Positions 25,401-55,841 of a DNA stretch of 64,000 nt are shown here, piece after piece. The stretch is taken from positions 11,880,001 to 11,944,000 of the forward strand of contig OX387608.1 of NCBI GenBank assembly GCA_947568835.1, in the 5' to 3' direction. A program made the translations under genes and the position numbers. The stretch comes from Protonemura montana. Its lineage: Eukaryota; Arthropoda; Insecta; Plecoptera; Nemouridae. The notes below the pieces were generated by a model, which did not search any database, was not told the origin of the DNA, and saw only the letters and a list, made by a program, of their open reading frames with translations. Positions within the stretch are counted from its first letter, which is position 1. Each line of letters begins with the position of its first letter.

Positions 25401-28400
25401 CCATGATACATTTCCAAAAAATGTGAAATACTACTGTAAATTTATAAACTAACCACCAAATTCTATGTAATTATATTTTAAATTCTATAATCACTATTGT
25501 AATTCTATTGGCCTCAGGTAATTATTGCAATACCAAAGGTAACAAACAAATAAATAAACAAAGAGCTACTGTTTCAACACACCAAACTGTCCGGTATCGT
25601 AACATGACCCCAGATCAGTAACTTACAATGCCGTGCTTGCAGGTGATCTTGCCTGCGCTACTGGAGCAATCGCACACGCGCACGTGGCTCAAGGGGTTGG
25701 TACGAGCGTGGTGTCGCGCCGTGTCGTGGTTGCTCGACCTGCACTCCTACCTGCTCGGTGCTCCGGAGCCCGCGGAGCCTGCCGCCGGGGTTCCCGCCGA
25801 AGACGTACCCGCCGACGAGATGCCCGCCCCTGTTGGCGACCAGGACGCGCCGGTCGGCGGGCTGGGTGCTGCCCACCAGGCTTTGTTGCAGCGGGAAGGG
25901 CCGACAGGTAAATGACCACAAAACACTAGTTCATGGGAGGAAAACCTGTGCCTTTGTCTGAATTTCCATTGCCATTGCCTTTGTCTGAGTGTCGTGTGAA
26001 AAATATCTTTGAATCTTCTCTCAAAGTTTTAGGTTTATATTCAAGCAATAAAGTCCTTTGGGTATTTCAAGCTAGCACATCAGCAATATTCAAATGGTAA
26101 ATTCCTCTTATCAAGCATCTCTTATAGTAATAATTTAATAAATGCACTGACGGGAGAAAGGGGGAGAAAATGTTTGTAGGGAAAGCATCTTTCACGTTTG
26201 CGGCAATGCACACGAAGTAGATATTGATCCTCGTGACAAGACCTAAAATTTTGAGCGTCCTCGCATAGTGATAATTCATTTTATAAAGTAATCGTCTATA
26301 GTACAACAAACAACTTATTATCTCAAAGCTTCTAGGTATTAGCCACAGGAAAACAAAAAAATAACAAAGCCATATCCAAGTCTTCACATTCATAAACTTT
26401 TTTATTGCACAAAATTACAGAGAATTCCTCAAAATAAGAAACCACAATTCTCAGATGCTGGAGATTATACATGAGTTGATACGAGATGAGATGGTACCCC
26501 TTGTTGAAGACAAGATGAGCGGTCTTCCTCGGAGACAAGTCTTTGAAAAAAGGCACATTCGTACCTCATTTCAAAAACCATGATTCCTGGATGCTGCAGT
26601 GCGATGATAGGGTGATTCGAGAGGAAATGGTGTCCAGTTGTGGACAAGACATGCGCTCTTACTCGGAAACGAGTTGAATTCTTCAACAAAATATCGAGAA
26701 GAGGCAAATTCGTAACTCATTCCAAAAACCCCGATTCCTGGATGCTGCAGTTCGATGATAGGGTGATACGAGACGAGATAGAATGAAGTCCAGTTGTTGT
26801 GGCAAGATGAGCGTTCTTCCTCGGAAACAAGTATTCGAGAAAAATCACATTCGTACCTTATTCCAAAAACCATGATTCCTGGATGCTGCAGTTTGATGAT
26901 AGGGTGATCCGAGACGAGATGAGTTGGTGTCTTGTTGAGGTGGCAAGACGAGCGTTTTTTCTCGGAAACCAGTTATTGAAAAAGGAGTTCATTGGTAACT
27001 TCTTCAGAAAGCCATGATTCCTGGAAGCTGCAGTTCGATGATAGGGTGATACGAGACGAGAGGAGATGGAGTCCAGTTGTTGTGACAAGATAAGCGTTCT
27101 TCCTCGGAAACAAGTCTTTGAGAAGAGGCACATAACTACCTCCTTCAGAAAGCCATGATTCCTGGAAGCTGCAGTTCAATGATAGGGTGAAACAAGATGA
27201 GATGGTGTCCAGTTGTTGTGGACACGATGACCGTTCTTCCTCGGAAACAAGTCTTTGAGAAGAGGCACATAAGTACCTCCTTCAGAAAGCCATGATTCCT
27301 GGATGCTGCAGTTCGATGATAGGTTGATAGGAGACGAGATGAGATGGTGTCCAGTTGTTGTGGACACGATGACCGTTCTTCCTCGGAAACAAGTCTTTGA
27401 GAAGAGGCACATAAGTACCTCCTTCAGAAAGCCATGATTCCTGGATGCTGCAGTTCGATGATAGGGTGATAGGAGACGAGATGAGATGGTGTCCAGTTGT
27501 TGTGGACAAGATGAGCGTTCTTCCTCGGAATCGAGTCTTCAAGTATGAGAGCATTCGTAACTCATTCCAAAAACCACGGTTCCTGGATGCTACAGTTCAA
27601 TGATAGGGTGATCCGAGACGAGATGAGTTGGTGTCTTGTTGTGGTGGCAATACGAGAGTTTTTTCTCGGAAACAAGTCTTTGAGAAGAGGCACATAAGTA
27701 CCTCCTTCAGAAAGCCATGATTCCTGGATGCTGCAGTTCGATGATAGGGTGATAGGAGACGAGATGAGATGGTGTCCAGTTGTTGTGACAAGATGAACGT
27801 TCTTCCTCGTAATCAAGTCTTTAAGTATGAGGGCATTCGTAACTCATTCCAAAAACCACGATTCCTGGATGCAGCAGTTCGATGATAGGGTGTTCCGAGA
27901 CGAGATGAGTTGGTGTCTTGTTGTGGTGGTTGGTGTCTTGTTGTGGTGGCAAGACAAGCGTTCTTCCTCGGAAACGAGTCGTTGAGAAGGAAAGCATTCG
28001 TTCCTCCTTCAGAAAGCCATGATTCCTGGATGCTGCAGTACGATGATAGGGTGAAACAAGATGAGAGGAGATGGAGTCCAGTTGTTGTGGCAAGACGAGC
28101 ATTCTTCCTCAGAAACAAGTCTTTAAGTAGAGGCACATAAGTACGTCCTACAGAAAGCCATGATTCCTGGATGCTGCAGTTTAATGATAGGGTGATAGGA
28201 GACGAGACGGGATGGTGTCCAGTTGTTGTGACAAGATGAGCGTTCTTCCTCGGAAACGAGTCTTTGAGAAGGAGGGCATTCGTTCCTCCTTCAAAAAACC
28301 ATGATTCCTGGATGCTGCAGTACGATGATAGGGTGATACAATAGGAGTTGAGTTGGTGTCTTGTTGTGGTGGCAAGACGAGCGTTTTTTCTCGGAAACGA

Positions 28401-31400
28401 GTTATTGGAAAAGTAGTTCATTGGTAACTTCTTCAGAAAGCCATGATTCCTGGATGCAGCAGTTCGATGATAGGGTGAAACAAGATGAGATGGTGTCCAG
28501 TTGTTGTGACGAGATGAACGTTCTTCCTCGGAATCGAGTCTTTAAGTATGAGGGCATTCGTAACTCATTCCAAAAACCACGATTCCTGGATGCTGCAGTT
28601 CGATGATAGGGTGATCCGAGACGAGAGGAGATGGAGTCCAGTTGTTGTGACAAGACGAGCATTCTTCCTCGGAATCGAGTCTTTAAGTATGAGGGCATTC
28701 GTAACTCATTCCAAAAACCATGATTCCTGGAAGCTGCAGTTCAATGATAGGGTGATACGAGACGAGAGGAGATGGAGTCCAGTTGTTGTGGCAAGACAAG
28801 CGTTCTTCCTCGGAAACGAGTCTTTGAAAAGGAAAGCATTCTTTCCTCCTTCAGAAAGCCATAATTCCTGGATGCTGCAGTACGATGATAGGGTGATAGG
28901 AGACGAGATGAGATGGTGTCCAGCTGTTGTGACAAGATGAACGTTCTTCCTCGGAATCGAGTCTTTAAGTATGAGGGCATTCGTAACTCATTCCAAAAAC
29001 CACGATTCCTGGAAGCTGCAGTTCGATGATAGGGTGATACGAGACGAGAGGAGATGGAGTCCAGTCGTTGTGGCAAGACTAGCGTTCTTCCTCGGAAACA
29101 ATCTTTGAGAAAGAAAGCATTCGTTCCTCCTTCAGAAAGCCATGATTCCTGGATGCTGCAGTACGATGATAGGGTGATAGGAGACGAGATGAGATGGTGT
29201 CCAGTTGTTGTGACAAGATGAACGTTCTTCCTCGGAATCGAGTCTTTAAGTATGAGGGCATTCGTAACTCATTCCAAAAACCACGATTCCTGGATGCTGC
29301 AGTTCGATGATAGGGTGATCCGAGACGAGAGGAGATGGAGTCCAGTTGTTGTGACAAGACGAGCATTCTTCCTCGGAATCGAGTCTTTAAGTATGAGGGC
29401 ATTCGTAACTCATTCCAAAAACCATGATTCCTGGAAGCTGCAGTTCAATGATAGGGTGATACGAGACGAGAGGAGATGGAGTCCAGTTGTTGTGGCAAGA
29501 CGAGCGTTCTTCCTCGGAAACGAGTCTTTGAGAAGGAAAGCATTCTTTCCTCCTTCAGAAAGCCATAATTCCTGGATGCTGCAGTACGATGATAGGGTGA
29601 TAGGAGACGAGATGAGATGGTGTCCAGCTGTTGTGACAAGATGAACGTTCTTCCTCGGAATCAAGTCTTTAAGTATGAGGGCATTCGTAACTCATTCCAA
29701 AAACCACGATTCCTGGAAGCTGCAGTTCGATGATAGGGTGATACGAGACGAGAGGAGATGGAGTCCAGTCGTTGTGGCAAGACTAGCGTTCTTCCTCGGA
29801 AACAATCTTTGAGAAGGAAAGCATTCGTTCCTCCTTCAGAAAGCCATGATTCCTGGATGCTGCAGTACGATGATAGGGTGATAGGAGACGAGATGAGATG
29901 GTGTCCAGTTGTTGTGACAAGATGAACGTTCTTCCTCGGAATCGAGTCTTTAAGTATGAGGGCATTCGTAACTCATTCCTAAAGCCATGATTCCTGGATG
30001 CTGCAGTTCAATGATAGGGTGAAACAAGATGAGATGGTGTCCAGACAAGATGAACGTTCTTCCTCGGAATCGAGTCTTTAAGTATGAGGGCATTCGTAAC
30101 TCATTCCAAAAACCACGATTCCTGGATGCAGCAGTTCGATGATAGGGTGATACAAGATGAGATGGTCTCCAGTTGTTGTGACAAGATGAACGTTCTTCCT
30201 CGGAATCGAGTCTTCAAGTATGAGGGCATTCGTAACTCATTCCAAAAACCACGATTCCTGGATGCTGCAGTTCGATGATAGGGTGAAACAAGATGAGATG
30301 GTTTCCAGTTGTTGTGACAAGATGAACGTTCTTCCTCGGAATCAAGTCTTTAAGTATGAGGGCACTCGTAACTCATTCCAAAAACCATGATTCCTGGAAG
30401 CTGCTGTTCGATGATAGGGTGATACGAGACCAGAGGAGATGGAGTCCAGTCGTTGTGGCAAGACTAGCATTCTTCCTCGGAAACGAGTCTTTGAGAAGTA
30501 AAGCATTCGTTCCTCCTTCAGAACGCCATGATTCCTGGATGCTGCGGTACGATGATAGGGTGATACGAGACGAGAGGAGATGGAGTCCAGTCGTTGTGGA
30601 AAGACTAGCGTTCTTCCTCGGAAACGAGTCTTTGAGAAGGAAAGCATTCGTTCCACCTTCAGAAAGCCATGATTCCTGGATGCTGCGGTACGATGATAGG
30701 GTGATAGGAGACGAGATGAGATGGTGTCCAGTTGTTGTGGCAAGACGAGCGTTCTTCCTCGGAAACAAGTCTTTGAGAAGAGGCACATAAGTACGTCCTA
30801 CAGAAAGCCATGATTCCTAGATGCTGCGGTACGATGATAGGGTGATAGGGGACGAGACGAGATGGTGTCCAGTTGTTGTGACAAGATGAGCGTTCTTCCT
30901 CGGAAACGAGTCTTTGAGAAGGAGAGCATTCGTTCCTCCTTCAAAAACCATGATTCCTGGATGCTGCAGTTCAATGATAGGGTGATACAATAGGAGTTGA
31001 GTTGGTGTCTTGTTGTGGGGGCAAGACGAGCGTTTTTTCTCGGAAACGAGTTATTGGAAAAGTAGTTAATTGGTAACTTCTTCAGAAAGCCATGATTCCT
31101 GGAAGCTACAGTTCAATGATAGGGTGAAACAAGATGAGATGGTGTCCAGTTGTTGTGACAAGATGAACGTTCTTCCTCGGAATCGAGTCTTTAAGTATGA
31201 GGGCATTCGTAACTCATTCTAAAAACCACGATTCCTGGATGCTGCAGTTCGATGATAGGGTGATCCGAGACGAGAGGAGATGGAGTCCAGTTGTTGTGAC
31301 AAGACGAGCATTCTTCCTCGGAATCGAGTCTTTAAGTATGAGGGCATTCGTAACTCATTCCAAAAACCACGATTCCTGGATGCAGCAGTTCGATGATAGG

Positions 31401-34400
31401 GCGATAAAAGATGAGATGGTTTCCAGTTGTTGTGACAAGATGAACGTTCTTCCTCGGTATCGAGTCTTTAAGTATGAGGGCATTCGTAACTCATTCCAAA
31501 AACCATGATTCCTGGAAGCTGCTGTTCGATGATAGGGTGATAGGAGACGAGATGAGATGGTGTCCAGTTGTTGTGGCAAGACGAGCGTTCTTCCTCGGAA
31601 ACAAGTCTTTGAGAAGAGGCACATAAGTACGTCCTACAGAAAGCCATGATTCCTGGATGCTGCAGTTCAATGATAGGGCGATAGGAGAAGAGATGAGATG
31701 GTGTCCAGTTGTTGCGACAAGATGAGCGTTCTTCCTCGGAAACGAGTCTTTGAGAAGGAGAGCATTCGTTCCTCCTTGAAAAAACCATGGTTCCTGGATG
31801 CTGCAGTTCAATGATAGGGTGATACAAGAGGAGATGAGTTGGTGTCTTGTTGTGGTGGCAAGACGAGCGTTTTTTTCTCTGAAACGAGTTATTGGAAAAG
31901 TAGTTCATTGGTAACTTCTTCAGAAAGCCATGATTCCTGGAAGCTACAGTTCAATGATAGGGTGAAACAAGATGAGATGGTGTCCAGTTGTTGTGACAAG
32001 ATGAGCGTTCTTCCTCGGAATCGAGTCTTTAAATATGAGGGCATTCGTAACTCATTCCAAAAACCATGATTCCGGGAGCTGCAGTTCGATGATAGGGTGA
32101 TACGAGACGAGAGGAGATGGAGTCCAGTTGTTGTGGCAAGACTAGCGTTCTTCCTCGGAAACGAGTCTTTGAGAAGGAAAGCATTCGTTCCTCCTTCAGA
32201 AAGCCATGATTCCTGGATGCTGCAGTACGATGATAGGGTGATAGGAGATGAGAAGAGATGGTGTCCAGTTGTTGTGACAAGATGAACGTTCTTCCTCGGA
32301 ATCGAGTCTGTAAGTATGAGGGCATTCGTAACTCATTCCAAAAACCACGATTCCTGGATGCTGCAGTTCGATGATAGGGTGATCCGAGACGAGAGGAGAT
32401 GGAGTCCAGTTGTTGTGACAAGATGAACGTTCTTCCTCGGAATCGAGTCTTAAAGTATGAGGGCATTCGTAACTCATTCCAAAAACCACGATTCCTGGAT
32501 GCTGCAGTTCGATGATAGGGTGATACAAGATGAGATGGTTTCCAGTTGTTGTGGCAAGACTAGCGTTCTTCCTCGGAAACGAGTCTTTGAGAAGGAAAGC
32601 ATTTGTTCCTCCTTCAGAAAGCCATGATTTCTGGATGCTGCAGTACGATGATAGGGTGATAGGAGACGAGATGAGATGGTGTCCAGTTGTTGTGGACAGG
32701 ATGAGCGTTCTTCCTCGGAAACAAGTCTTTGAGAAGAGGCACATAAGTACCTTCTTCAGAAAGCCATGATTCCTGGATGCTGCAGTTGGATGATAGGGTG
32801 ATAGGAGACGAGATGAGATGGTGTCCAGTTGTTGTGGTTAAGATGAGCGTTCTTCCTCGGAATCGAGTCTTCAAGTATGAGGGCATTCGTAACTCATTCC
32901 ATAAGCCATGATTCCTGGAAGCTGCAGTTCAATGATAGTGTGAAACAAGATGAGATGGTGTCTAGTTGTTGTGACAAGATGAATGTTCTTCCTCGGAATC
33001 GAGTCTTTAAGTATGAGGGCATTTGTAACTCATTCCAAAAACCATGATTCCTGGAAGCAGCAGTTTAATGATAGGGTGATACGAGACGAGATGAGTTGGT
33101 GTCTTGTTGTTGTGGCAAGAAGAGCTTTTTTTCTCGGAAACAAGTCTTTGAGAAGAGGCACATAAGTACCTCCTTCAGAAAGCCATGATTCCTGGATGCT
33201 GCAGTTGGATGATAGGGTGATAGGAGACGAGATGAGATGGTGTCCAGTTGTTGTAGACAAGACGAGCGTTCTTCCTCGGAATCGAGTCTTTAAGTATGAG
33301 GGCATTCGTAACTCATTCAGAAAGCCATGATTCCTGGAAGCTGCAGTTCGATGATAGGGTGAAACAAGATGAGATGGTGTCCAGTTGTTGTGGACAACAT
33401 GAGCGTTCTTCCTCGGAAACGAGTCTTTGAAAAAGGAGGTCATTCGTACCTACTCTAAAAAAAGCACGATTCCTGGATGCTGCAGTTGAATTATGTGATG
33501 AGAAGAATTTTGATGAGAGAAAAGATGGTGTCATATTTTTGTGGACTTCTTGTGAATTTTCCCTTGAAAACGAGACTGGCGAAGAAGGGTATTCATACCT
33601 CCTGAAACTGAAATTTCTGGGTGCTGCAGTTTGAAGATGAGATGAGATGAATAATTTGGATCTTTTTGAGCAAATTTTTTCTTTTCTTGAAAGTAGGTTC
33701 CTGAAAATTAAGGGCTATTCTTGGTCATTTCTGAGTCCTGATTTGTTTCTTCGAATTTTTGTAGTTATGTAATTTCTTTGAGAAAACTTTGCTGCATATG
33801 CAACAGGCAGTCCTCACTTCGCCTTCTTTGCACCTTTACGATTGCTGCGTATAGGGACGCAGCACATAAATAGCCTTTTGAATCGCTTCCACCTTGAACT
33901 TTTGCCTTGGCTTTTTGGCAACGTCTCCACATCTTCAACCTTATCCTGGCCAAGTTCCTCCAGTGTCGATGTGGAAGACTTGCGAACATGAGACTTAGCA
34001 TCATCTCCAAATGCTGGTTGGTCTTTTAAGTCTGGGTGAATCTGATCCTCTGATGCACTGTCATTCAGAAAGCCATACTGTTCCACTGTGACGTTCGGTA
34101 ACAAGACCTCTATATTGCCTTCATTTAGGCAATTGTCTCCTTGGTCCTGCTGGTTTCTTCCCTCTGTCACCTCAAGGTCCTTCTGGCTTGACACCTCGTT
34201 TTCTTCGCTTTCCTCGATGTTAGATGGAAACACCATGGGGAACGTAACTCGATGAGCTTTTCTGACAGATGGTTGCTCTTCCAAGTCTCGGTGCATCTGA
34301 ACCTCTGACACGCTGTCACTCAGAGAGTCTAGCTGTTCAACTGTGACGTTCGGTAACAAGGCCTCTGGGTTGCCTTCATTTAGGAAATTCTCTTCTGGGA

Positions 34401-40412: not shown

Positions 40413-41320
40413 GTATTGTGGCGTCCTGGTTCCCGCGCCGAGATTGAACAGGGGGCCGGGGGGCGCCTTTCCTTTCCCAGCATTAGCCCAGCAGATCTCT
40501 GCAAATCAGCCATTTCATTGGTTGAAACTTTAAAGGGCCGCGGGCAACCTTGGCCGCGGGCGTAATGCGCCGACAGCGCCAGTCTATGAAGTGTCTAACT
40601 CTACGGTGAAAAGATCTCTGCGTGCCTTTTGCGCCCGTATCAATTTTGCCAAATTGGTGCGATCGATCGAGAAGATTGTTACGCTGAAAATCAGTGGGTG
40701 CAATAAGGTAGCTAGCGCGCATTTGAATGAACCGCCTTCGCCGAAAACGACGAAGCTCTGCAAGATGCGCGATTTTGTAGGTCACGTCCGTTACGTCGTA
40801 GCGACAACAAAACCTATTTCACATTACCAAACTTCTTTGATACGACTAAATAAATGCTGATAAATGCTGTGCTATCGTGACTATTTTAAACCGCAAGTAA
40901 GTTAATGCTGTATTATCCGAAGATCGCAGGTAAGTAGAGAATATCATTTATTAATCTATGCTCGAACCACAGATTCTTTCTTCTGTGCTCTAACCTAACC
41001 TTACTTACCTGTCAGAAAATTATTCACAGTTATTTACAGTTTTCAATATTTTATTGACTAAATAGCGCCGACTAGTAATATTAAGCAACATTAATAACAA
41101 AATAATCAGCTCACTATGCATTTTGATAGTTTTAGTTACATATTTACTAGGCTAGTCGCTCAAAATTGAACTAAAGCACAATATAAAGGTAGTCATTGAA
41201 TTCAATAGTGCGGTATAGTACTGTACAGAAAGAAGTAAGTAACTATGAGCATTGTATTTCAAAGCTAAAATTATTTACGAAATAAATTGGTAAAATACTG
41301 TGCTTTTATACAGTACTGCA

Positions 41321-44300
41321 TTAGTGACCTGCACCATGTCCTTTAGCATGAGCTACATTGGCTTCAACACTTAGACACAATCGGTGAGCTCGTTTCCGTA
41401 TTTTTAGTGACGCAGTAGCGACTGGCGGTCTTCCTGCAGGAACCCTGCTGGACCCTCGTGTCAAACCATCACGTCTCCGAGCTATCGACGTGGGCTGCAC
41501 CTTTATCTTGCCACCTTGCCTTCGAGTAGCTGCTGTGCATCGTCGAAATGCAACCATTGCTGTGATCAGGTCTGTTACATTGTGAATCTTTGACAAATCC
41601 TTTTCTAGCTTTTCCATATGTGATACACAACTTGCTGTAACAAAGGACTTGATACGTTCCATCTGAGCATTTACTAGCGCAATAGATTTGTCAAGATCGT
41701 CACTGCCTGGTGCCTCTGTAGTTTGCAGCGGTACAATCTCCATTTCAGTGTCGTCTAGTGCACTTGAAGGCCCAGGCTCAGCCATGTCATAACGTGAAGC
41801 AGTGATCACTTGGCATTCACTGTCATCTTTCAATTCCTAAAAGAAAAGTAAACATTATTGAATTGTCAGTCCTGTAAAATATATATTATGTGTACCTTTT
41901 TTTTATGTAGGTAGTGCATAATATGAACTGCTTTATCAAATCAAAGTCATAGAACTTTTCTGACTTTAATTATTATCAAGAGAGATTGGTTATAGGTGTA
42001 CCAACTTTGAATACTAAAATACATTATATTATATCAGTCACTTACCTTGAAAAAGTGTATTCCTGGGCATTTTTTCCCCAGTGCTAATTGGGCAAGGGAA
42101 TATCTGCCCTGCAAGGTAATTGGTGGCAAGTTGGGAAGCATCACATCTTTGTGCTTGTGAAGGATTGCTTGGTGCTTACAAAAAGCTCCTTCTGATCCTT
42201 GGTGACAGCTGCATACACCCAAGTGCACATCTACGATGTAGTCTGTATCAGCAAGTGTGGCACTGGGTACAGAGTAGGCACTGTCGCTGACTTTCTTTAT
42301 CTTTTCCAGGTTGATGCCAGCCATTCGCTTGCACAGTACTGAATATCCCAGAACGGGTTCCGCACGGCGCCCATGGGCAAAGTTCAGAAGTCGCGCCTTG
42401 AAATATTGGCTCCATATGGTTCCGCAGAAGTCTACAAGTGCCACAATATTAAAGGCCTTGGTCCTGCTAAGGATAACATCTTTCAAAATACGAATTGAAG
42501 CCTCCGCATAATTATTTGTGTGGTTATTGCGACTGATTAGCTTCATTCGGTGAAATTGAACCCATTCTTCTTCTCTGGAAAGGTTCTTTTCCATTCGAGA
42601 AACAAATTTGTCTTGGCCTTCTAGCTCATTGATTGCCAGCTTTGCATCAGCAAGTTTTTGTGATGTGTCAGCTTTCATGACCTGTGAATAAATATCCACA
42701 TTAAGAAGGGAATGCTTATCCATTAGAGGATTTTTATTTTATTATCAGGCCATGGCTTCGCACATTATATTACTTCATTGTTTTAAGATGAGGGCATTTA
42801 ATTTTATCTGGAATAGCATTCAGTATCTACATACATTTTGAAATAACTTCATCAACTCTTTTCGGCTTTCCTTATTCACACCACTCTTTGTAGAAATCAG
42901 CCAACGCCACTCAGCCTGAGCCATATGGAAGTGGCAAAGAAACTGAGTAGCGCTTGGCCAAACTGTGCGCAATGCTGACTTCTCTGCAGATGAGTCGTCA
43001 GTCATAAATATTTGGGGCTCCTAGAAGTTGGTCATTAAATGTTCATTAAAATGTAATACGTTCTTACTTCTTACCAACACCTAAGTTTTTTCTATAATAA
43101 TTTTCAAACACATTGCAATTCAATACACTGGATTTTACCTTCTCTCCACCAAAACACCGAGGGAAGTTTTCCTTTAGCAGAGCAAATGCTTCCATGTAGC
43201 CTTCTTTTGACTGACTCTCATGGATGAGAATTCCAATCGGAATGGCCCCTGCTGCAGTTGCAGTCAAAATAATAGTAACTGTGGCACAAGTGACATCACA
43301 GCTTGAACTGGAGTCAATAAAAATTATTTCCTTAGAGCAGGGCAAAGCTTGAGCCCGCTCCATTAAATCCGTCACCACTAATACGGAATAGGGGTGCTCC
43401 TCTTTTATGGCCACAAATATTCCTGAAATTGTTTTATTTTTCTTAGTGCTTACTATTTTATTTTATTTTCTCATACTTATAGGTACCTACTTGTATTTTG
43501 GCTAGCAATGCATTATTAAGGTACCTCTATTTTAAGATATTGTCATAGCTGTAGATCAGAGTCATATAGATAGGAGTCGAGCATGATGCCAAAAATACGC
43601 CTTAGACGTAGGAACTAGCATAGGCCTAATATAGTACTAACCACCAGTATGCTTGTACCTAGGAATTAGCATAGGCCTAATATAGTACTAACCACCAGTA
43701 TGCTTGTACCTAGGAATTAGCATAGGCCTAATATAGTACTTAACCACCGATATGTTGTACCGTCTTTGCTTGTACCTAAATTAAAATATCATATATATAT
43801 ATATAATATAAAATATCATAGATAATCACCTTCTTCTCTTAATTTTGGCATTTTTTCGCGTAGCTTTTGAAACGGCGCAGAAACGGGACCAAAATTTTCT
43901 AATTTCCAAGCGTCGTGCAGACTGTAAACTCTTCGCCGGATTGGATTTATTGTCCCATTTGCCAGCGCCTCCACCGAGTTATCCAAGAGCAGAAGGCTAT
44001 TCTCATGAGCGCGAATGGCTTCTGCAGGTGACATTCCGGCATTAAAAAAATCGCAGAAAGCAGATTTGGTTTCATTGCTCACTCGTAAATTCTTTAATGA
44101 ACCCACAGAGCCAACACTGTGGTTGTGGTTTGTGTTCACGGTGACTTTTCCGCAGAGTGCTGGACTCTGCTGCAGGTAGGGGTCATTGCGGCGGGTGTAA
44201 TAGTTATTTTTCTTCACTAAAATGTCTATTGACGCCTTGCAGCCTGTGGCTCGCTTGCTACCAGCTACTTTATTAATGTTGCTGTGATGGCACACCCAAA

Positions 44301-44655
44301 GCTTGTGCATCACGAACCTGCAGATTTTTTTAATGTTAAGTGTACATTTAAACATTGGAATATGTTATGAAATATAAATAATATTTGAGAAAATGGGTGC
44401 AGTTGAACTATTCAGTTTCTTGGTGACAAGTCCTTGCACTTTTTTGGTGCATTACCTCTTAGGCTCCATTTGCCGCTGCCTGCCTACTAACCAATTAGTA
44501 TTCGTTTTCATTCCGAAACACTTAATCCACTTCCGCGCTTCGTCTAAGTCCCTTATAGTGCATCTTACAACTGTCTCTGAGGGACTGGATTTTTCGATGA
44601 CATGTTGAAAGTCTGAAATCTGGTGGAAAACGGCAGACAGATCATGCTTTGACAT
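41321..44655 (-). CDS. MULE transposase, 6 exons, no breaks seen
   Basis: Minus-strand exons 44456-44655, 43830-44317, 43139-43422, 42835-43020, 42046-42681 and 41321-41836 join in phase to 769 residues with GT-AG introns throughout. The N-terminal part has a possible zinc-binding region (MHKLWVCHHSN, then GCKASIDI), as in FAR1/WRKY-GCM1-like domains of MULE proteins. The catalytic core shows plausible DDE residues: Asp in EIIFIDSSSSCD, Asp in QIFMTDDSSAE and Glu in HTNNYAEASIR, with LCHFHMAQAEWRW between. A SWIM zinc finger, CSCHQGSEGAFCKHQ, follows. Residues after about 600 are acidic, then basic and Arg/Lys-rich, possibly a nuclear localisation or DNA-binding tail. The DDE assignment is by motif spacing only. 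Confidence 0.88.
43605..43765. repeat. Three 51-bp tandem repeats inside the MULE
   Basis: Unit taggaattagcataggcct continuing to gtatgcttgtacc, repeated with few changes. The third unit is altered at its end. It lies in the transposase intron between exons 2 and 3. Confidence 0.85.
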
Positions 44656-45065
44656 GGTGACAGAAATTCCAAATACAAAGTGGGGTTATAAAGCATGGCG
44701 CAGTGCGAGATTATTCTGTCAGCTAGCACGTGCGCACTTCACGCGGGCGCGTGACGTCATGTGACATTTTAAATTTTTAACCAATGAAACGGCTTGATTT
44801 GGCGAGGTCTGCTGGGCTAATGCTGGGAAAGGAAAGGCGCGGCCGGGGGACCAGGGGGCAATACGCGAGAGGATGCATCAGCGGTAATTTGGGGCAGGTA
44901 CCTAGCTACCTGCACAGTCTACATCCGACAGCACACCGGTGAGCATCATCGCTCAATTTGTCCATCGCAAATATTATCTTTGTTCATCGATTGTATATCT
45001 AACCATCCGAACAAATAAAATCACGCTATCATCTTGAATTACCACGCCGCACCCGGCCAAAGTAT

Positions 45066-54411: not shown

Positions 54412-55841
54412 CTACACGGGCGGAACCGCTTCTTCCTTCGACTTTGTACTTGTCACGACCTTTGGCACAGGATTCAGCTTTGCCATCCGACCCACCATCT
54501 TCTTGTGCTTCTTGGAGCCGAGGTGAATCTTCCACTGCAGATTGCCGACAAACACGCGACTGCACGTTTGACACGTGTGACTGCCCCACTCGTGGTTGAG
54601 CGGAGAGTCGACGGGGAGAGGGGTCACGTCTGTGAGGTTGCGATCGTGCAGGTAGCTCTCCACGACCTTGCACGCCGGCGCCGTCACCAGCTCGTCCCAG
54701 CGCGAGACGTCCGAACCATCAAGCGCAAATACAGGCGGCACCTGGGAAATTTTTTAGAGCTAAGTTAGAGGGTCATTCACACATCTATCCAATCTTTCGT
54801 AGGACAGTAGGTATGACTTGAACTACGACATTTCACTTATCCATCTCTAAAACGGATGATAAGCGAGGGGAATGAAGTTTTGGCCGGGTGCGGCGTGGTA
54901 CACGGGTTATACAGGTTAATACAAGATGATAGCGTGATTTTATTTGTTCGGATGGTTAGATATACAATCGATGAACAAAGATAATATTTGCGATGGACAA
55001 ATTGAGCGATGATGTTCACCGGTGTGCTGTCGGATGTAGACTGTGCAGGTAGCTAGGTACCTGCCCCGAATTACCGCTGATGCATCCTCTCGCGTATTGC
55101 CCCCTGGTCCCCCGGCCCTCTGTTCAATCTCGGCGCGGGAACCAGGCCGCCACAAAGTTTTTGTACTAACTTTCATCCCTCCAGACTCTCTCCCGAACAG
55201 AATTAGGGATGGAAACCCATTGTGAACCATAGAAAGCAACAACTCTTTCAGCAATGAGCCCCAATACCTAACCCCGCAAAGTGTAGCTGAACGTTTAAGA
55301 TTTCAGCAAACACATCAAACCGTACTGACAGTGATACCATTTTTCTCACGATGACAGCTACCAAATTAATTGGGGCCCGACTGTAAATATGTCTAAAGAG
55401 TTGCTACTTCTTCTCGACAGAACAGTCTATTTGAAACCCATTTTTAAAACCCAGAGGCACAAGTTATTGCACAACTTTTTTGACAATTTTGAGGTTAGCT
55501 ATTGGATTTTCCGTGCTTCCCCACATTCCTGTGATTTGCCAGGCAAAAAAAAATCCACTGCAATGGACTTCCTCCAGAATCAACATCTTCCACAGATCAA
55601 ACCTTTTTTAAATAAGGTTTTTCCCCCCACCTGTCTGTCCGGTCGGCGTAGGAAGCGGTTGACGACCCATTTCACTTGTCTTCGCGCATATCGCCGCGTG
55701 ACCAGCTTGAGCTCGTCGACGCCGTTCTGCAGGAGGCGTTTGCCAGCCTCTGTGTCGCGTTCCTCGGTGGGCAGGGTCAGGTATGCGTGGAACTCTTTGA
55801 AGCCGATCGACTGGAAGATGCCCGTCGTGTAATCGGGACAG
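54412..55841 (-). CDS. TRIT1: tRNA isopentenyltransferase, last two exons (5' part not found)
   Basis: Exon 55631-55841 reads [19 protein letters not shown], the family signature, then [12 protein letters not shown]. The last exon, 54412-54741, reads [17 protein letters not shown] and then a C2H2 zinc finger of the matrin/U1 type: [17 protein letters not shown] with the second His in GSKKH. This C-terminal finger is typical of eukaryotic TRIT1/MOD5. Known: it adds an isopentenyl group to A37 of cytosolic and mitochondrial tRNAs that read UNN codons. The ATP-binding P-loop and catalytic exons should lie upstream (higher coordinates), but I did not find them on the minus strand before 64000. 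A solo LTR inside a SINE sits in the intron between these two exons. Confidence 0.9.
54840..55212 (-). mobile_element. 5S-derived SINE fragment split by a solo LTR
   Basis: Left piece 54854-54878 (gatgataagcgaggggaatg) and right piece 55155-55212 (gtactaactttcatccctcc, ctctctcccgaacagaa) are adjacent in intact SINE copies. The 276-bp repeat between them is a later insertion. Confidence 0.75.
54879..55154 (-). mobile_element. Solo-LTR-like repeat, copy 2, unoccupied
   Basis: 276 bp with the same ends as copy 1 (on the minus strand TGTGGCGGCC at the start and CCCGGCCAAA at the end). It is flanked by AAGT at 54875-54878 and 55155-55158. It includes the single ggccggggg 9-mer that the MULE duplicated in copy 1, and a 13-bp-plus stretch (gtataacccgtg) missing from copy 1. 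Confidence 0.75.

Follow-up and report, generated by a model that had tools for sequence, protein, structure and literature searches.

The locus described here lies in a stretch of 64,000 nucleotides from the insect Protonemura montana (Plecoptera, Nemouridae; assembly GCA_947568835.1, contig OX387608.1, positions 11,880,001 to 11,944,000 of the forward strand), which we call the window. It raises the question of whether the insertion it carries is a complete and recently mobile Mutator-like element (MULE), and whether such an element chooses the sequence into which it inserts. Our analysis makes it very probable that this is a complete autonomous insect MULE which has transposed very recently, encodes a spliced DDE transposase and enters DNA by a 9-bp cut centred on CCSGG and selected by the transposase. 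The searched genome assembly comprises 258.5 Mb in 34 contigs. The evidence is DNA sequence, and all that is said below about catalysis, binding and activity of the MULE is drawn from sequence and models.

The element, its host repeat and its copies

The MULE spans positions 40463–44840 (4,378 bp) inside a solo long terminal repeat (LTR). It is flanked by 9-bp direct repeats, ggccggggg with the central core CCGGG, at 40454–40462 and 44841–44849, and these are flush with its terminal inverted repeats, confirming a duplication reported in an earlier note on this DNA. The same note gave terminal repeats of about 65 bp with 33 identical outer bases; the 33 bases are indeed identical, whereas the repeats are longer, about 72 bp at 90% identity (left, 40463–40534, 72 bp, plus strand; right, 44768–44840, minus strand), and start with GCGCCTTTCC.

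The interrupted LTR consists of a left part (40417–40462) and a right part (44850–45061), both on the plus strand, and is bounded by 4-bp duplications GTAT at 40413–40416 and 45062–45065. Related repeats (85–86%) occur elsewhere in the genome in pairs with a spacing of about 4,412 bp, and the one pair that we opened encloses a reverse transcriptase, an RNase H and an integrase with an H2C2 zinc-binding domain, domains from which we read the element as being of Ty3/gypsy type. The 4-bp duplications, the pairing of the related repeats and the enclosed retroelement domains together identify the host repeat as a real solo LTR, as the earlier note had supposed. The unoccupied host repeat that it placed 10 kb away is also present. 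This empty solo LTR (54879–55154, minus strand, 276 bp), flanked by a 4-bp duplication ACTT, holds one ggccggggg (55109–55117), and its minus strand from 55155 to 54917 matches the joined flanks of the MULE at 234 of 239 bases, the 9-mer occurring there only once.

Seven full-length copies of the element are present on six contigs (C1, C3, C4, C11 with two, C13 and C15), together with a truncated one, L057 (C13:3567648-3569195), which is 96–99.7% identical in two pieces and retains one end only. Searching with the terminal 26-mer at up to three mismatches returned 15 ends, exactly those of the seven full copies and the truncated one, while the reversed 26-mer used as control returned none in the genome. 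At this tolerance of up to three mismatches in 26 bases, the genome yielded no divergent copies sharing these termini. Terminal inverted repeats of about 72 bp and about 90% identity, a feature by which the MULE superfamily is recognised, are present in all seven full copies, and their occurrence at unrelated places excludes chance as an explanation for the element in the window. A frame of 769 codons is open in all seven copies, one of which carries a single residue change. Pairwise substitutions among them range from 0 to 18, and they fall into three subfamilies (L001–L003, L004–L005 and L006–L007). Empty sites were found for two of the three copies tested, namely the window copy and L003 (551 bp, four mismatches, no gap), and for L006 no second copy of the surrounding sequence was found. 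These near-identical copies, open frames and empty sites bear out the recent insertion suggested earlier. The further statement that everything needed for a functional autonomous element appears present is upheld by termini and open frame, that is, at the level of sequence evidence; the element may be active at present.

Variable columns among the window-family copies are fewer in coding (3/2,310) than in non-coding sequence (11/2,046; Fisher p 0.028), in a count that left out gapped columns and a 15-bp block at 40794–40808. The difference, based on few events, hints that the protein was under selection during the spread of the copies.

L006 and L007 carry about 150 bp of additional sequence near one end, by the 3' end of the transposase gene, which is apparently a partial tandem duplication. 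The right flanks of L005 and L007 contain a common tandem repeat with a spacing of about 91 bp, some hundred bases from the insertions. A one-mismatch pattern match on C3 was not counted as a copy: in the 301 bp examined it has just one end, and the similarity breaks down inside the terminus.

Target sites and a second family

The 9-bp duplications of the seven full copies, each given in one orientation, are GGCCGGGGG, CGCCCGGGC, TCCCCGGAC, CCCCCCCCC, TGCCGGGTT, GCCCGGGGC and GGCCCGGAA. Six are exact, and in the seventh, which is poly-C, the length of the duplication is ambiguous; 9 bp falls within the 8–11 bp that characterise MULE duplications. NNCCSGGNN fits six of the seven. Five other sites were held out, one belonging to the truncated copy and four to a second family.

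This second family, obtained by a protein search of the genome, is 3,676 bp long, has 73-bp termini at 97% identity that also start with GCGCCTTTCC, and is flanked by the 9-bp duplication GTCCCGGTG. Six exons join to 772 residues (from L058), 53% identical to the window protein. The long copies L058 (C11:457539-461214) and L059 (C11:728990-732700) belong to a segmental duplication, and the element of L059 exceeds that of L058 by 35 bp. Two derivatives, of 1,471 bp and 693 bp, are 99.7% and 99.8% identical to the family in their longest matches, and this near-identity implies that the second family has also moved recently. The shorter one, L061 (C14:2086550-2087242), is non-autonomous and has a perfect 9-bp duplication, GCCCGGTCT. 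The longer one, L060 (C12:14725627-14727097), is flanked at its two ends by different 9-mers, each with a centred CCSGG, and is perhaps a recombinant of two insertions. As judged from sequence, two complete and recently mobile MULE families share one genome.

Among the held-out sites the motif is present in the flank of the truncated copy (TACCGGGAC), in the duplication of the second-family long copies, which were counted as one target site, and in both flanks of L060 (CACCGGGCC and CCCCCGGAT), counted as two; it is absent from L061, where the core is CCGGT. A centred CCSGG is thus found in 4/5 held-out sites and in 10/12 target sites overall. The second-family copies were taken from a search that was not conditioned on the motif, and a motif-conditioned pattern search was kept out of the counts. 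By comparison, CCSGG occurs at 26 of 63,996 positions in the window and at 11 of 12,544 flank positions (0.04–0.09%).

One may ask whether sequence recognition underlies this pattern at all, or whether it reflects a tendency to insert where DNA is open and rich in GC, or the survival of some insertions and not others. GC content stays raised for about 7 bp in both directions from the target-site centre, and maize Mu prefers open regions of high GC content (PMC2774946; statements on published systems here refer to the parts of each source that were accessible). However, only 20 of 2,859 GC-rich 9-mers (≥7 G/C) have a centred CCSGG, and at this GC-matched rate the binomial chance of four in five held-out sites is about 1e-8, assuming independent sites. 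Moreover, the pattern is both centred and palindromic and is held by three of the four sites of a family that is 53% identical. We therefore consider an origin of this kind quite improbable.

Several aspects of the sample nevertheless speak against sequence recognition. The motif was named after the first seven sites had been inspected, so that the other five alone are independent of its choice. Two exceptions, the poly-C site and the CCGGT core, occur among only 12 target sites. The ends of L060, which carry different 9-mers, lack a proper duplication and represent two sites only if the copy is a recombinant; with L060 counted once, the motif is carried by 3/4 held-out sites and 9/11 in total. 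Weighing these points, we are inclined to think, with fair though far from firm confidence, that this is an animal MULE lineage whose transposase would read its target sequence as a centred palindrome CCSGG, kept across two families that are 53% identical. We know of no sequence-specific MULE from an animal so far, and such a lineage would be the first.

The position of L058 and L059 in a segmental duplication also bears on the possibility that intact copies have been silenced, or that they spread by segmental duplication and not by transposition. The seven window-family copies, on the other hand, occupy different target sites and show no similarity to each other directly beside the insertions. 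Distinct targets, together with the empty sites of two copies, indicate that they moved as units, and silencing or spread by duplication appears improbable.

The transposase, its relatives and the surroundings

The transposase gene consists of six minus-strand exons separated by five GT-AG introns, joining to 769 residues as originally proposed; neither a stop nor a frameshift interrupts the sequence, and no splice site is missing from it. Exon 1 (44655–44456, 200 nt) contains the ATG start codon and exon 2 (44317–43830, 488 nt) encodes a zinc-finger-like N-terminal region. The proposed catalytic residues are distributed over exon 3 (43422–43139, 284 nt; D266), exon 4 (43020–42835, 186 nt; D332 and a C353..H356 motif) and exon 5 (42681–42046, 636 nt; E446), the last of which also encodes a SWIM-like CxCx8CxH (C543, C545, C554 and H556), while exon 6 (41836–41321, 516 nt) runs to the stop codon. 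In an alignment of 14 sequences D332, E446, C353 and H356 are invariant and D266 is conserved in at least 90%, and it is from this conservation that a catalytic role of the DDE residues is proposed. A conserved DDE triad with a C..H pair between its second D and its E is a further feature by which MULEs are recognised. A long open spliced frame could also belong to a domesticated host gene derived from a MULE, but seven scattered copies that have termini and duplications mark a mobile element, and domestication is in practice refuted.

A Pfam scan of the 769-residue protein gave MULE PF10551 (3.8e-10, 40.5 bits, cut-off 27.6), the only family to pass its cut-off, in agreement with the superfamily proposed from the sequence. 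Searching the PDB by sequence yielded no useful match, and one scan of IMG/VR with a protein alignment gave no relatives. The fold predicted for a homologue from a tick (P0001) is matched best by the ISCth4 transposase, which we take to be a member of the IS256 family, of bacterial origin. Both have the same RNase-H-like DDE core, at only 12% identity over the aligned part, and the predicted catalytic fold is IS256-like by way of this homologue. WRKY-like fold matches to the homologue model are weak (E 0.09 and above).

This picture of the protein has to be set against the following. The structure modelled is that of the tick homologue, 41% identical to the window protein, and not that of the window protein, and VIA tested well only about residues 250–579 of this model. 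In addition, the Pfam scan returned no SWIM or FLYWCH hit in the window protein, which has the CxCx8CxH; Pfam SWIM is found in 5 of 34 homologues. Zinc fingers of these two kinds are common in the superfamily, though not universal.

We infer that the spliced gene yields a DDE transposase with a zinc-finger-like N-terminal region, an RNase-H-like core with an inserted helical domain and a SWIM-like zinc knuckle. This protein would bind the terminal repeats of about 72 bp and then excise the element. Insertion would proceed through a 9-bp staggered cut centred on the 5-bp palindromic core CCSGG, which the transposase would select, probably as a symmetric dimer.

Intron 2 holds three tandem 51-bp repeats (43601–43753), related at 69–83% to a genomic repeat of about 100–105 bp. 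The latter occurs at many sites across the genome, both scattered and in local arrays. The intron repeats suggest either a long residence of the MULE in the lineage or the capture of a host repeat.

The highest identity to any of 40 homologues from the database is 53% over 238 residues. The second family was initially placed as sister of the window family, with full support in a tree of 29 of these homologues. Once all 40 were included, the two families formed a clade together with a partial Aphis craccivora protein (96/93), and their grouping to the exclusion of that protein had weak support (89/56). The sister label was consequently dropped, and our estimate of a recent horizontal transfer was raised slightly. 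Such a transfer, followed by spread in a naive genome, would differ from reactivation of a resident lineage, and it is favoured by the place of the aphid protein and by the near-identity of all window-family copies found, the truncated one apart, with none diverged at the termini within the mismatches searched. However, a second family with the same target motif is co-resident in the genome, identity to the database homologues does not exceed 53%, and the repeat in intron 2 is related to one dispersed in the same genome. We regard horizontal transfer as a doubtful, though by no means negligible, origin. Older relatives on C14 (33–35% identity) carry stops, and the two that were examined out of three have no recognisable termini, so that they provide no test of the target motif.

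In the window, an open frame with a MARCHF6 C-terminal domain ends about 1 kb before the MULE insertion, which has the opposite orientation. The neighbouring MARCHF6 exons match insect sequences; among the 120 matches listed out of 1,697, the named ones that score best come from polyneopterans (74–76% over 59% of the query), closely followed by Hemiptera. The region 26500–33500 contains several long open frames which overlap and whose translations are related and recur; it appears to be an array of tandem repeats lying between coding exons of MARCHF6.

Place among known MULEs

According to the earlier note, intact autonomous MULEs are described less often in arthropods than in plants. Intact arthropod elements can no longer be called rare in the literature: a 2026 survey lists 322 types from 222 species, 305 of them with complete transposase (PMC13359780), and Muta1 of Aedes aegypti is an active mosquito MULE (PMC5225508). 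The 4.4 kb, the terminal inverted repeats (TIRs) of about 72 bp and the 769 amino acids of the window element all fall in the ranges of the survey, which reads low divergence as recent activity and gives no target motif in the parts covering its text and Table 1 (PMC13359780). Aedes aegypti MULEs such as Muta1 are likewise autonomous, with a DDE transposase, TIRs, 8–9 bp duplications and several identical full-length copies (PMC5225508). The element in the window, exemplary as it is, is an ordinary new member of a superfamily already known.

The arthropod-centred clades Ghost and Spectre have aphids and spiders among their hosts, as have several homologues of the window protein, and SWIM is listed for Ghost (PMC6446971). 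The homologues found here include aphid, tick, thrips and spider proteins. In 2019 no complete Ghost, nor its TIR or target site duplication, was known, and the single complete Spectre had 74-bp TIRs, a C2H2 motif and a duplication of 8 bp (PMC6446971), compared with 9 bp here. D266 and D332 are 66 apart in the window protein against 84 aligned columns for Ghost (PMC13359780), measures that are not directly comparable. A further clade, Phantom, includes Muta1.

With respect to target choice, Muta1 shows little or no sequence preference at yeast insertion sites and 171 mosquito sites (PMC5225508), in contrast to the 10 of 12 sites with a centred CCSGG in the two families described here, a comparison made by description and not by sequence. 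Maize Mu/MuDR shares the 9-bp duplication and the MULE transposase but has only a weak outer consensus, SW::SWNNNNNWS::WS, matched exactly by 61 of 2,127 sites, and is associated with open chromatin (PMC2774946). MuTAnT of Medicago has a clear target choice, as here, but for TA microsatellites and not a GC palindrome (PMC4486113). A CCSGG preference is thus not described, in the accessible parts of these reports, for the few MULEs compared (Muta1, maize Mu and MuTAnT), and no MULE with a GC palindrome as target was found in the literature searched (subscription papers not covered). Related families of Drosophila TIR and LTR elements share palindromic target motifs, AT-rich in all but one family (PMC3276498), so that a palindrome in itself is to be expected here, in contrast to its GC core; the term "Mutator" does not occur in the accessible part of that paper. 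The strength and the GC core of the palindrome in a MULE are the unusual part, for which we found no report.

Two co-resident intact families with a common CCSGG target are the part of this work that deserves specialist attention. Both families are candidates for a transposition assay in yeast or insect cells, and might serve to build an integration tool whose target can be predicted. Should the choice of CCSGG be real, a superfamily whose members studied so far are guided mostly by chromatin or lack a sequence preference would include some that read their target. Comparison with Muta1 could then locate the target-recognising part of the transposase, and would offer a route to mapping target recognition in the MULE superfamily.
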